Virus record (IMG/VR): IMGVR_UViG_3300043811_000051
Span: 1 to 36,682 of that record
Reading direction: 5' to 3' (one strand)
From: a virus
DNA length: 36,682 bases
Part shown: positions 735 through 6,168 of the stretch, one piece after another
Layout of the letters: every line of letters begins with the position of its first letter
Numbering within the stretch: position 1 is the stretch's first letter
Notes under the pieces: generated by a model
Seen by the model: only the letters and a program-made list of their open reading frames with translations
The model's database searches: none
What the model was told of the DNA's origin: nothing
Translations under genes and position numbers: made by a program

Positions 735-811
735 TTCTCAAATTTTATTCTTATTCTAAAAAATGTTAACAGTTATAGCATTCGGAGTTAGATTTAGTTC
801 TTACCAAAAAG

Positions 812-885
812 AACGTGATACTGGAATCGAACCAGTGACACCTTATTTAACATATAAGTGCTCTAACCAGTTGAGCTAATCACGA
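812..885 (-). tRNA. tRNA-Asn (anticodon GTT)
   Basis: The minus strand folds into a full cloverleaf. The acceptor stem has six of seven pairs (first pair T-T), followed by T8 and A9. The D stem is GCTC/GAGC, the anticodon stem CTTAT/ATAAG with loop ATGTTAA, so bases 34-36 are GTT (Asn). The variable loop has five bases, and the T arm is ACTGG-TTCGATT-CCAGT. The 3' CCA is not encoded and the terminal pair is mismatched. The D and T arms resemble bacterial tRNA-Asn. A phage-borne tRNA for AAC/AAU codons fits the Asn-rich fibre and capsid proteins encoded here, but that link is inference. Confidence 0.9.
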
Positions 886-1437: not shown

Positions 1438-4128
1438 TTATGTTTCTATTTCCGGTCTATATTCTTTTGAATTCATCCCAAATGTCCACGATACCGCATC
1501 AGATGCCTTTGTTATGCTAGGAGGAACTCTCAAAAAATATTCTTTAAATATTCCATCTGGCTCAGGCGTGCTATTAATGACCTTTACCATTACTAGAGGC
1601 TCATCATTATTAATTTCTTTTCTATAAAGCTTGCCTAAATTATCTTCGTGAATCAACTTGGCATTTGAGTTTATTAAATATTTTTCTTGACCATAAAAAT
1701 CAATCATCACTCGTTTTATTTCCAAATTTGATTCTTCATCTATTTTTTCAACTGTTATTTTTTCTGGATTCTCTATAATCCATTCTTTTAATCTAACGCC
1801 ATTTACTGCATATATTTTCCAACCATCTGGATATTGAACAGCGGGTCCAGTTAAACAATGTAACCTTCCTTGTTCATTTGTATTTAAAATGCAAGGACGC
1901 TCAGATACCCAGCATATATTCTCATGAGGTAAAAACCAGCCCGCATTTTTTGCTAATTCTATTAAGCCATTAACTTTCTTTGTTTCTTCAATTAATCCAC
2001 ATTCAATCTTAAAAAAATCATAAAATGCCAGCCAATTTGCATCATGTTGACCATATCCAGAATCCGCCACAGAAGTCTTCACAGAATCCGCCACAGAATC
2101 CCTCACAGAACCACTCACAGCCTGCCCCACAGAATCCCACACAGAATCCCACACAGAATTCTTCACAGACTTCACCACGGAATCCGCCACAGACTTCTCC
2201 ACAGAATCCCTCACAGACTCCCACACAGAATCCGCCACAGCCTGCTCCACAGAATCTGCCACAGAATCCCTCACAGCCTGCTCCACAGAATCTGCCACAG
2301 AATCCCTCACAGACTTCACCACAGAAGCCCACACAGAATCCACCACAGACTTCACCACAGAATCCCTCACAGAATCCCACACAGCCTGCCCCACAGAATC
2401 CCTCACAGAATCCCTCACAGAATCCGCCACAGCCTGCCCCACAGACTCCCACACAGAATCCGCCACAGCCTGCTCCACAGAATCTGCCACAGAATCCCTC
2501 ACAGACTTCACCACAGAAGCCCACACAGAATCCACCACAGACTTCACCACAGAATCCCTCACAGAATCCCACACAGGACCACCCACAGCAGCCCTCACAG
2601 AATCCCCCACAGAATCCCACACAGGACCACCCACAGCAGCCCTCACAGAATCCCTCACAGACTCCCTCACAGAATCCGCCACAGAATCCACCATAGAAGT
2701 CCCCACAGAACCACTTACAGGGGCACTCACAGAATCCGCCACAGAAATCCTCACATAATGCCCCACAGAATCCCCCACAGCATTCCTCACAGAATCCGCC
2801 ACAGACTTCTCCACAGAATCCACCACAGAAGCCCACACAGAATCCACCACAGACTTCACCACAGAATCCCTCACAGAATCCCACACAGGACCACCCACAG
2901 CAGCCCTCACAGAATCCCCCACAGAATCCCACACAGAATCCCTCACGGACTTCACCACAGAATCCCCCACAGAATCACTCACAGAATCACTCACAGACTT
3001 CACCACAGAATCCCTCACAGACTCCCTCACAGACTTCTCCACAGAATCCCACACAGAAGCCTCCACAGAATCCCCCACAGCAGCCCACACAGAAGTCCTC
3101 ACAGAATCATTCACAGAATCCCACACAGAAGCCTCCACAGAATCCCACACAGAAGCCCCCACAGAATCCCTCACAGACTTCTCCACAGAATCCCACACAG
3201 AATCCCTCACAGACTCCCTCACAGAATCCACCACAGAATCCCTCACAGCATTCGCCACAGAAATCACCACAGAATCCCTCGCAGAATCCCTCACAGAATC
3301 CCACACAGAATCCCTCACAGCATTCGCCACAGAATCCCTCACAGAATCCGCCACAGACTTCACCACAGAATCCCTCGCAGAATCCCTCACAGAATCCCCC
3401 ACAGCAGCCCTCACAGAATCCGCCACAGACTTCCCCACAGAATCCCCCACAGCATTCCTCACAGAATCCGCCACAGACTTCTCCACAGAATCCACCACAG
3501 AATCCCACACAGAATCCCACACAGAATTCTTCACAGACTTCACCACGGAATCCGCCACAGACTTCTCCACAGAATCCACCACAGAAGCCCACACAGAATT
3601 CCTCATAGAATCCGTCACAGAAGCCCACACAGAATCCGTCACAGAAGCCGCCACAGAATCCCACACAGACTTCTCCACAGACTTCCTCACAGAAGTCCTC
3701 ACAGACTCCCTCACAGAATCCCCCACAGACTTCCTCACAGAAGTCCTCACAGAATCCAACACAGAATCCCTCACAGACTTCACCACAGACTCCCTCACAG
3801 ACTTCTCCACAGACTCCCACACAGAAGCCTCCACAGAATCCCCCACAGAATTCCACACAGAATCCATCACAGAAGTACCAAAAATTTTCATTAATTCTTT
3901 ATCTAAAATAAGAGCTCTTACTAATCCTTGTGACATAGGAGATCCACACCAAACTATTTTTTTTGGCGGTTTTAATCCCGCTAGTATATAAGATTCATTA
4001 ATTGCTTTTTCTGCTTCTATTCTATTAGCAGGATCAATACATAGTCCAATATTAGTCCATTTTTCTACATATTCCGGAAATTTATCTTTTTGAAATTGCG
4101 TTAATTCGGTTATTTTAATCTGCGACAT
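1438..4128 (-). CDS. DUF6745-type protein with giant tetrapeptide-repeat insert
   Basis: An 896-residue protein in three parts. Residues 1-85 match the N-terminus I associate with DUF6745 proteins (Lys-Trp-x-x-Ile-Gly-Leu, Ala-Gly-Leu-x-Pro-Pro, Ile-Val-Trp-Cys-x-Ser-Pro). Residues about 86-692 are roughly 150 tandem four-residue units x-Ser-Val-x, where the first position is mostly Asp, Lys, Glu or Ala and the last Arg, Trp, Gly, Val, Ala or Glu. Residues 693-896 are the conserved C-terminal domain beginning Gly-Gln-His-Asp-Ala-Asn-Trp-Leu-Ala-Phe-Tyr, with Asn-Ser-Thr-Pro-Glu-Pro-Asp-Gly near the end. The start at 4128 is chosen because GGGAGG lies upstream; an in-frame ATG at 4182 would run far into the neighbour. 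Function is unknown. Shorter arrays of this kind occur in the family as I recall it, but this one fills two thirds of the protein. Confidence 0.85.
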   Translation of the reverse strand: MSQIKITELTQFQKDKFPEYVEKWTNIGLCIDPANRIEAEKAINESYILAGLKPPKKIVWCGSPMSQGLVRALILDKELMKIFGTSVMDSVWNSVGDSVEASVWESVEKSVRESVVKSVRDSVLDSVRTSVRKSVGDSVRESVRTSVRKSVEKSVWDSVAASVTDSVWASVTDSMRNSVWASVVDSVEKSVADSVVKSVKNSVWDSVWDSVVDSVEKSVADSVRNAVGDSVGKSVADSVRAAVGDSVRDSARDSVVKSVADSVRDSVANAVRDSVWDSVRDSARDSVVISVANAVRDSVVDSVRESVRDSVWDSVEKSVRDSVGASVWDSVEASVWDSVNDSVRTSVWAAVGDSVEASVWDSVEKSVRESVRDSVVKSVSDSVSDSVGDSVVKSVRDSVWDSVGDSVRAAVGGPVWDSVRDSVVKSVVDSVWASVVDSVEKSVADSVRNAVGDSVGHYVRISVADSVSAPVSGSVGTSMVDSVADSVRESVRDSVRAAVGGPVWDSVGDSVRAAVGGPVWDSVRDSVVKSVVDSVWASVVKSVRDSVADSVEQAVADSVWESVGQAVADSVRDSVRDSVGQAVWDSVRDSVVKSVVDSVWASVVKSVRDSVADSVEQAVRDSVADSVEQAVADSVWESVRDSVEKSVADSVVKSVKNSVWDSVWDSVGQAVSGSVRDSVADSVKTSVADSGYGQHDANWLAFYDFFKIECGLIEETKKVNGLIELAKNAGWFLPHENICWVSERPCILNTNEQGRLHCLTGPAVQYPDGWKIYAVNGVRLKEWIIENPEKITVEKIDEESNLEIKRVMIDFYGQEKYLINSNAKLIHEDNLGKLYRKEINNDEPLVMVKVINSTPEPDGIFKEYFLRVPPSITKASDAVSWTFGMNSKEYRPEIET
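2053..3864 (-). repeat. 12-bp tandem repeat tract, about 150 copies, in frame
   Basis: On the plus strand the unit reads ACAGAATCCCTC with variation; on the coding strand it is four codons, x-TCT-GTG-x. The TCT-GTG pair is almost invariant, while the flanking codons vary (GAT/AAG/GAG/GCC/AAC before; AGG/TGG/GGG/GTG/GCG/GAG after). Because 12 is a multiple of three and the unit lacks stops, long open frames appear in several other frames; these are artefacts. Larger blocks are also duplicated: 2272-2384 and 2464-2576 look identical over 113 bp, and much of the block recurs near 2825-2890. This points to repeated unequal exchange or slippage. The tract is visibly more GC-rich than its surroundings. 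Confidence 0.95.
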
Positions 4129-4684: not shown

Positions 4685-5560
4685 TTAAGTTAAGTATTTA
4701 CGTATCTCTATATTATGCTTTTCAGCAGCTTTTAACATGCACGATGATAGGTGATTAAACTCTTTATCAGGTTGAATATAAGTTACATTAATGCGGCTCA
4801 TATTATCTTGCCAGAATCGCAATAAATTTCGCTCATAATCTAAATCATTATAATTCCTAATACCTCTAATCACCGTAACGTCATAATTTATAGATTGTAT
4901 ATAATCAGTTAATAGACCTGGATGTATTGTTATTTGCCTATAATTCAATTCATTGGGTAAAAAAAAGTTTCTAGAGTCTTTTTCAGGATTAAGGCAATAT
5001 GCAATTATTACTTTATCAAAAATTCTCTCTGCTTTTTCCAATATATTTAGATGTCCTTTGTGAAATGGGTCAAAAGTACCTGGATAAATAGCAATTTTCG
5101 GAATTTTATGTTCTACATATTGGGCTAATTCCATATATTGGTATTCTTTAAATATGGCATCTTCATAATCTATTTGATATCCAAAATCTTCTTTTAAGAT
5201 ACTTCTATCTGCCGCTTGAAATATCTCAGAATGTTTGTTTCTTCCATTTCCTGAGATAGTATCTTCAATAATATTGATTATGTATTCTCCATAATTGAAG
5301 TTAATTGGACATTTTTCTTTAAAGAAAGTAATTGATTTTAATTCATTATCGTTTCTACGTGGGTCATACACAATGTCGTGAAAAATTGCTGATAAAAACA
5401 ATATATCATTACCCAGCATATCAATTTCTCTAAAATAATTCAAAATGTTAATTATATGATTCAAATTATGATAAAATCTCCATGGTTCATAATATTTATC
5501 CAATATTATTGGATTAAAACCTAGATCCTTTAACCTTTGTTCTATATGTTCTTTTAACAT
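4685..5560 (-). CDS. HD-type phosphohydrolase fused to CoaD-like adenylyltransferase
   Basis: A 291-residue two-domain protein. Residues 1-150 match the predicted metal-dependent HD family COG4339: Glu-Pro-x-Arg-x-Tyr-His-Asn-Leu-x-His (25-35), Phe-His-Asp-x-Val-Tyr-Asp-Pro (60-67) with Asn-Asp-Asn-Glu, and Ala-Ala-Asp-Arg-Ser (116-120). Residues 155-291 match phosphopantetheine adenylyltransferase: Tyr-Pro-Gly-Thr-Phe-Asp-Pro, then His-Lys-Gly-His (167-170, the HxGH nucleotidyltransferase signature), Val-Ile-Arg-Gly-Ile-Arg, and a Leu-Ser-Ser near the end where CoaD has Ile-Ser-Ser. The likely chemistry is adenylyl transfer plus hydrolysis of a phosphorylated nucleotide, but the substrates are unknown; it could act on CoA, NAD or a related metabolite. 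The ATG at 5560 is preferred over a TTG at 5566 because GGGAGG lies eight bases upstream. Confidence 0.85.
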   Translation of the reverse strand: MLKEHIEQRLKDLGFNPIILDKYYEPWRFYHNLNHIINILNYFREIDMLGNDILFLSAIFHDIVYDPRRNDNELKSITFFKEKCPINFNYGEYIINIIEDTISGNGRNKHSEIFQAADRSILKEDFGYQIDYEDAIFKEYQYMELAQYVEHKIPKIAIYPGTFDPFHKGHLNILEKAERIFDKVIIAYCLNPEKDSRNFFLPNELNYRQITIHPGLLTDYIQSINYDVTVIRGIRNYNDLDYERNLLRFWQDNMSRINVTYIQPDKEFNHLSSCMLKAAEKHNIEIRKYLT

Positions 5561-5772
5561 CCGCAAAACCTCCCTTTTGGTACTTCTGCATCAACTGGTA
5601 TTTCTGGAATTTCATCTTGCTCTTTATGTGATTTTTTTAAATTACCAGAAGTCATAAATGCAATATCGGATATCACTGGTGTTCCGGCAGCAACTACTTT
5701 TATTTTTCTTACGGTTATTTTTTCATCAGTAAATTTTTCATTACTTCTTTTTAACTCATCAATTATTCTCAT
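5554..5772 (-). CDS. hypothetical protein, 72 aa, C-terminal Cys motif
   Basis: Small protein with a basic N-terminus, a proline/acid-rich middle and the ending Arg-Phe-Cys-Gly-Cys. A GGGG stretch precedes the ATG, and the stop overlaps the HD-CoaD start by seven bases. No family recognised. A Cys-Gly-Gly-Cys ending also occurs in the gene at 14608, so a metal-binding or redox tail is possible. Confidence 0.6.
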   Translation of the reverse strand: MRIIDELKRSNEKFTDEKITVRKIKVVAAGTPVISDIAFMTSGNLKKSHKEQDEIPEIPVDAEVPKGRFCGC

Positions 5773-5790: not shown

Positions 5791-6168
5791 TTAAATATTG
5801 GCAATTTCTATATTATCTACACCGTCATTATTGTATTTGACAGAATCCACACTTATTAATACTTTTGCTATAATATTAAAAGATAACTTTTCGTAATTGT
5901 CTTTAAAATATTTTGATGATTTAATAGATCCTTCAATATAGAGCCTGCATCCTTTTTTCACTATTTTTTGAGCTATTAGCGCTAATTTGCTAAAGCATAC
6001 TATATTATGCCATTCAGTATCTTCTATTAGCTGCCCTGTGTTTTTGTCTTTGTATTTATTACCAGTAGCCAAGCTAAAGCGAGCTGTAATTAAACCGCTA
6101 TTATCGTGAATAATAGGATCTTTGCCTGCAAAACCTATTAACAATACTTTATTGAGTCCTAATGCCAT
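5791..6168 (-). CDS. ssb: single-stranded DNA-binding protein
   Basis: A 125-residue OB-fold protein of the bacterial SSB family. It starts with Leu-Asn-Lys-Val-x-Leu-Ile-Gly and has Ala-Arg-Phe-Ser-Leu-Ala-Thr, Thr-Glu-Trp-His-Asn-Ile-Val and Gly-x-Arg-Leu-Tyr-Ile-Glu-Gly in the usual order. It would coat single strands during replication and recombination. It is shorter than host SSB (about 170 residues) and lacks both the glycine-rich linker and the acidic Asp-Asp-x-x-Phe tip that recruits host partners; it ends Ile-Glu-Ile-Ala-Asn-Ile. The gene overlaps the membrane-protein gene upstream by 20 bases and lies in the same leftward block as the annealing-protein gene. Confidence 0.93.
   Translation of the reverse strand: MALGLNKVLLIGFAGKDPIIHDNSGLITARFSLATGNKYKDKNTGQLIEDTEWHNIVCFSKLALIAQKIVKKGCRLYIEGSIKSSKYFKDNYEKLSFNIIAKVLISVDSVKYNNDGVDNIEIANI

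Follow-up and report, generated by a model that had tools for sequence, protein, structure and literature searches.

A 151-unit array in a phage DUF6745 protein

Why does one phage protein consist for two thirds of its length of a single four-residue motif, repeated about 150 times? The question is raised by a 36.7-kb window, positions 1 to 36,682 of IMG/VR virus record IMGVR_UViG_3300043811_000051, in which terminase, portal, and major head protein genes lie on one side and the repeat protein gene sits with a small partner gene in a minus-strand run (Table 1). The start of the repeat protein gene lies within the partner gene, the overlap recorded in the first-pass annotation, and is preceded by a GGAGG motif. 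The nucleotidyltransferase-like gene of the same run encodes 293 residues, of which the N-terminal part is HD-phosphohydrolase-like and the C-terminal part cytidylyltransferase-like.

Table 1. Coordinates of the DUF6745 gene, its parts, and nearby features in the window
Feature	Position	Strand	Remarks
tRNA-Asn (GTT)	811-885	-	near the left end of the window
DUF6745 protein gene, 896 aa	1438-4128	-	N-domain aa 1-84, array aa 85-688, C-domain aa ~684-896
C-domain, PF20530 (DUF6745)	1438..2079	-	Pfam E 1.9e-61, aa 684-896
Tetrapeptide array, 151 x 12-bp units, x-Ser-Val-x	2065..3876	-	conservative in-frame count
113-bp exact duplicate	2272-2384 / 2464-2576	-	offset 192 bp = 16 units
116-bp exact duplicate	2509-2624 / 2821-2936	-	offset 26 units
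N-domain, ~84 aa, W-x-x-I-G...IVWCGSP	3877..4128	-	conserved, beyond the Pfam model
Partner gene, 102 aa	4115-4423	-	14-bp overlap with the DUF6745 gene
Nucleotidyltransferase-like gene	4685-5566	-	between the single-strand binding protein gene and the DUF6745 cassette
Single-strand binding protein gene	5791-6168	-	same minus-strand run as the DUF6745 gene

The reading frame is free of stop codons, and the array occupies 604 of its 896 residues (67%), as expected from the earlier estimate of about 150 in-frame 12-bp units filling two thirds of the protein. Tandem Repeats Finder reported a period of 12 with 151.4 copies (2058-3874). Both ends had been taken for DUF6745 domains. This holds for the C-domain, which scores 207.4 bits against a gathering cutoff of 27; the N-terminal ~80 residues fall outside the Pfam model and are common to most relatives having complete genes. 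The Ser-Val pair had been called almost invariant, which is true of valine (147 of 151 units) but less so of the serine position, where Ser is found in 131 of 151 units and about 13% have Ala (15) or Pro (4), with Tyr in one.

In the window array, codon 1 is drawn from GAT, AAG, GCT, AAT, GAG, ACT, CAG, and GGT and codon 4 from AGG, TGG, GTG, GGG, GCG, and GAG, with essentially one codon per residue at both positions. All 41 arginines are encoded by AGG, a codon used for 15% of arginines in the sampled window genes. Per-nucleotide heterozygosity is high at nt 1 to 3 and 10 to 11 and only 0.01 to 0.04 over nt 5 to 9. The 113-bp duplication noticed earlier is exact, and a longer one of 116 bp is also present. 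When the units were shuffled, the longest repeat was 42 bp on average and 57 bp at most, so the block duplications are real. The period of exactly four residues shows in the hydrophobic moment, which over the whole array reaches 1.71 at 90 degrees per residue but only 0.07 at 100 degrees; it matches neither the coiled-coil heptad (3.5, about 100 degrees) nor the pentapeptide period of 5 residues. An open frame on the plus strand (2044-3894, 616 aa) is a by-product of the stop-free 12-bp unit, since reverse or other frames are also open in the arrays of L003, L004, L005, and L008. Profile matches of the array to ClfA, SdrC, GvpQ, and plasmid-stability proteins were discarded as low-complexity matches.

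Distribution and composition of the arrays

Scans of viral and genome contigs and of phage and plasmid records yielded about 60 array-bearing loci, viral and MAG. The array is a family-wide trait and not the oddity of one virus. Complete arrays in relatives have 7 to 62 units, in agreement with the length variation proposed for the window, whose 151 units are the most found and whose residue set is wider than those of the relatives. The typical unit in relatives is [Asp/Ala]-[Ser or Gln]-Val-[Arg/Trp/Gly]. Depending on the lineage, the core pair is Ser-Val, Gln-Val, Ala-Val, Ser-Leu, or Gln-Leu, written as TCTGTG, TCCGTG, AGCGTC, TCGGTC, AGTGTC, GCGGTG, AGCCTC, CAGCTC, or CAAGTC. Inside one array this codon pair is essentially fixed; across lineages it differs, while the residue sets stay alike. 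Two arrays with fixed central codons use other alphabets, namely, [Ser/Arg]-Gln-Leu-[Tyr/Asp/Val/Ser] in L093 (2227-3612) and Ser-Ser-Leu-[Arg/Asp/Tyr/His/Gly] in L140 (around 3001-3639).

In the pooled arrays, position 1 is Asp in 469 and Ala in 435 cases, and position 4 is Arg in 324, Gly in 309, and Trp in 256. The two positions are mutually independent, and adjacent units only slightly avoid identity (p 0.01 to 0.04). No order code was seen in the unit sequences of the pooled arrays, whose order is near random. Among the first 47 arrays, 29 encode arginine by AGR and 18 by CGN, and none by both. The later L110 array is an exception, having AGG (8) as well as CGG (5).

The contig end falls within the array in 19 of the 51 DUF6745 loci, including L002, L003, L020, L027, L032, L035, L036, L046, L047, L049, L058, and others, which marks the array as a systematic break point of short-read assembly. 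In nature, arrays may exceed the assembled ones in length. The assembled arrays are moreover a biased sample, as assembly favors heterogeneous arrays and could thereby inflate apparent diversity; short arrays and arrays from isolate genomes show the same pattern of variation as those of assembled contigs.

Variation at the codon level

Across the 1062 units of the 47 other arrays, codon deviations were counted against the commonest codon of each array. Codon 1 showed 409 nonsynonymous and no synonymous deviations, codon 4 showed 590 and 2, respectively, and the central codons deviated 69 times altogether, which bears out the proposal that variation is held to two residues per unit. Within arrays, mean heterozygosity reaches 0.42 at nt 2 and 0.61 at nt 10, whereas no other position exceeds 0.084 and synonymous third positions lie at 0.03 to 0.04. 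The usual outcome is Asp/Ala through nt 2 and Arg/Trp/Gly through nt 10. The piN/piS values are 0.299/0.060 for the window array and 0.146/0.031 for 42 others, a ratio of about 5, with piN exceeding piS in 40 of the 42.

Each array is thus homogenized in its nucleotides around a central codon pair peculiar to its lineage, while its edge residues stay mixed in an order close to random. Synonymous changes would suffice if the breaking of perfect repeats were the only need; their absence suggests strong homogenization together with upkeep of the mixture at the protein level.

Array turnover between near-identical phages

Four Mycobacterium abscessus prophage records (L011, which is prophiGD102-1, L136, L137, and L138) differ by 0 or 1 nt over the 645 nt that follow the array, and in the three whose gene is complete, the 240 nt ahead of the array are identical. 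The unit counts of the four arrays are 46, 19, 62, and at least 20, respectively, and the unit orders differ. In global unit alignments of these arrays, 2, 3, 9, and 1 of 100 shuffles scored as well, so that the scores are at or slightly above those of shuffled controls. The L011 and L138 arrays have common blocks separated by unit gaps. Over the 143 units of the M. abscessus arrays, 10 of the 12 nucleotide positions are invariant. A second pair, L028 and L030, has 2 differences in the 261-nt N-domain and 32 in the 624-nt C-domain, and the unit orders show no likeness beyond that of shuffled arrays. Array turnover is far faster than that of the flanking domains, as seen in the arrays of relatives, the array of the window being without a close relative.

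Assembly artefact is unlikely as a general explanation, because prophages in isolate genomes show the pattern and the longest exact repeat in the L011 array is 75 nt; for the GD strains, paired Illumina reads of 300 bases were used, supplemented in some by Nanopore (PMC8092301). The window array, taken by itself, could still be such an artefact. Two Nocardia farcinica NCTC11134 records, L015 and L098, have 4.9 kb in common at 99.9% identity, but the 15-kb plasmid record has a frameshift in the array, which probably reflects sequencing indels or a duplicated assembly. Because both records come from one strain and have the same array, they are uninformative on turnover.

The partner gene and the cassette

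The partner, whose short sequence carries GExTGHxH and HxEH motifs, had been described as conserved, and its open reading frame indeed adjoins the DUF6745 gene in all 32 complete loci, on the upstream side in 20 and on the downstream side in 12. The partner model (pLDDT 86) is all-beta, with conserved GHxH and HxEH. It may be a cupin-like metalloprotein, with a double-stranded beta-helix and an HxH...H metal site, but the best PDB match had a Z of 3.5, and neither Foldseek nor a second aligner gave a convincing solved relative. For the DUF6745 protein (L030 model), the same two aligners gave no PDB match (best Z, 3.9), and profile searches of PDB sequences returned no relative for either protein.

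Cellular and phage DUF6745 members alike have the partner gene as a neighbor. In Deinococcus, Methylobacterium, and Streptomyces, the pair is found beside STM4011-STM4015 genes (radical SAM, hydrolase, LRR), for instance, in L013 (4045-9520), L016 (3041-8363), and L012 (1-4588). The cellular members seen have a helical segment or leucine-rich repeats instead of the phage array; in Deinococcus, Methylobacterium, and a planctomycete, the leucine-rich repeats precede the C-domain, where phages have the array. The segment ahead of the C-domain can thus be exchanged for another, and this suggests a role in recognition. In 16 relatives of prophiGD102-1, the downstream gene was matched but the DUF6745 gene was not, so the cassette looks dispensable to the phages.

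A surface, anti-defense, or host-interaction role had been suggested for the two genes. Our searches gave this no direct backing, as the PADLOC 2023 library yielded no defense-model match, a lack that leaves room for a defense protein, and the PDB no relative. A host-interaction or counter-defense role would nonetheless fit a dispensable phage cassette. In the literature searched, no paper names DUF6745 or prints SVRDSV, and there is nothing on such tetrapeptide arrays.

Interpretation of the array

With moderate confidence, we read the array as a hypervariable recognition segment that is shuffled unit by unit and kept diverse by selection in a phage accessory cassette. This two-gene cassette of tailed phages would combine a small, predicted all-beta partner with a DUF6745 protein in which two constant folded domains enclose the array of 12-bp, four-residue units. 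Whole units are probably gained, lost, and exchanged by unequal recombination or slippage. Selection on the protein would maintain the mixture at the two edge positions, because neutral homogenization would have erased it, as it has synonymous variation. Less certainly, the array may serve as a multivalent, length-tolerant recognition segment, with its specificity re-dealt by reshuffling, and may correspond in position to the leucine-rich repeats that certain cellular DUF6745 proteins carry; we draw this likeness to a sensor from evolutionary pattern and position. The partner and the C-domain could be the constant effector or assembly part.

An unlikely but tenable alternative is a neutral, length-tolerant linker, to which slippage adds and from which it removes units, a spacer being sufficient and the edge mixture being tolerated noise. 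Length looks unconstrained, from about 4 units (L060) to 151, and unit order looks random. The AlphaFold2 model of L030 is also compatible with a linker: both end domains are confident, while the array has a pLDDT below 50, which likewise lends nothing to the earlier idea of an unusual array fold, nor to a binding surface. Noise, however, would be expected at synonymous sites too, yet these are nearly invariant. The same residue choices also recur under different codons (Arg by AGG or CGG), and every unit is in frame.

Rather doubtful is a self-assembling or sticker-and-spacer scaffold, in which Val, Trp, Arg, and Asp repeats would form a fibre or condensate kept soluble by the mixed edge residues, as in low-complexity or silk-like repeats. 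The strict hydrophobic period of four residues (90 degrees), the mixed charges and about 4% Trp of the window array, and the tolerance of length would suit such a scaffold, but the family-wide limit to few residues is tighter than solubility demands.

There is a slim chance that the recognition segment proposed above is a combinatorial polymer in which the string of residue pairs, like a written code, sets binding. Each unit would then present one out of about six residue pairs (Arg, Trp, or Gly with Asp or Ala next), or one out of a larger set in the window, and fast unit shuffling would re-deal unit order and number. If so, this would be a virus-borne, recombination-driven diversity system built on a four-residue unit.

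It is very improbable that a dedicated mutator, retroelement-like or other, re-randomizes nt 2 and nt 10. The outcome resembles a degenerate oligonucleotide, in that 10 of 12 positions are unchanged and two are near-maximally variable between near-identical prophages. No reverse transcriptase, however, was found in any of 30 phage records, including the window, some of which may be fragments. The single Arg codon type per array in the first 47, L110 being the exception, makes the alphabets look founder-limited, and the common blocks of L011 and L138, with unit gaps between them, likewise speak against a mutator. A link to phage annealing recombinases was rejected as a general rule, with ERF in only 4 of the 30 records. 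That the DNA repeat itself is functional, as a binding or recombination site with the protein as a by-product, can hardly be right: nucleotide homogeneity within each array is strong, but the central DNA differs freely by lineage (TCTGTG, AGCGTC, TCGGTC, CAGCTC, CAAGTC, and others) with residue type kept, and the reading frame and flanking domains are always intact.

Comparison with known repeat systems

The recognition segment favored here resembles a known evolutionary logic, that of the Podospora NLR repeats. The WD40 repeats of the fungal NLRs het-d and het-e show high internal conservation and concerted evolution, with few hypervariable positions under diversifying selection and allelic changes in repeat number and order (PMC12222747). 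Like these HIC repeats, the phage arrays are near-identical within a gene and differ between lineages, have few hypervariable positions (nt 2 and nt 10) with a nonsynonymous excess, and, in relatives of the window (the M. abscessus prophages and L028 versus L030), are polymorphic in number and order. They differ in that the unit is four residues and not a WD40 blade and in that they belong to a phage protein without an NTPase domain; the NLR architecture (NTPase plus WD40, TPR, or ANK) is absent, Pfam giving only DUF6745 and low-complexity matches.

Fast-evolving repeats that stay uniform apart from a few variable sites characterize the recognition systems of fungi and bacteria. Here the pattern is found at the smallest possible scale, 4 residues or 12 bp, in a dispensable cassette across many phages. 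Near-identical prophages differing only in the array offer a clean natural experiment for host range, superinfection, and defense. They also carry a warning, as short-read assemblies break at, or conceal, array variation.

The targets of diversity-generating retroelements (DGRs) vary at fixed positions of an otherwise constant sequence (PMC10907252). The phage array is similar in effect only. Each of its variable positions uses two or three of the four bases (nt 2, A/C or A/G only; nt 10, three bases), unlike adenine-directed randomization to all bases, and the lack of a reverse transcriptase in the 30 phage records, including the window, led us to rule out a DGR.

TAL-effector repeats are about 34 residues long and have two variable residues per repeat. 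The phage arrays share with them a constant repeat and two adjacent variable residues (x4-x1 over the unit boundary), but the unit has four residues and there is no sequence relation. Pentapeptide repeats are similarly short, but the array has a period of 4 and lacks the A(D/N)LXX motif. Leucine-rich repeats fill the corresponding segment in some DUF6745 proteins, whereas the window protein has no LRR motif.

The fold does not depend on the array, because DUF6745 relatives without it exist, as in L006 (6341-7456), L010 (4091-5173), and L014 (3446-4516); they belong to phages, including Microcystis phage MaMV, and to a Nostoc plasmid. The Mycolicibacterium plasmid pCBMA213_1 (L101, 1267-3588) apparently has two tandem DUF6745-like units and no array. 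A BFVD search matched DUF6745 proteins from Microcystis phage LMM01 and from uncultured phages.
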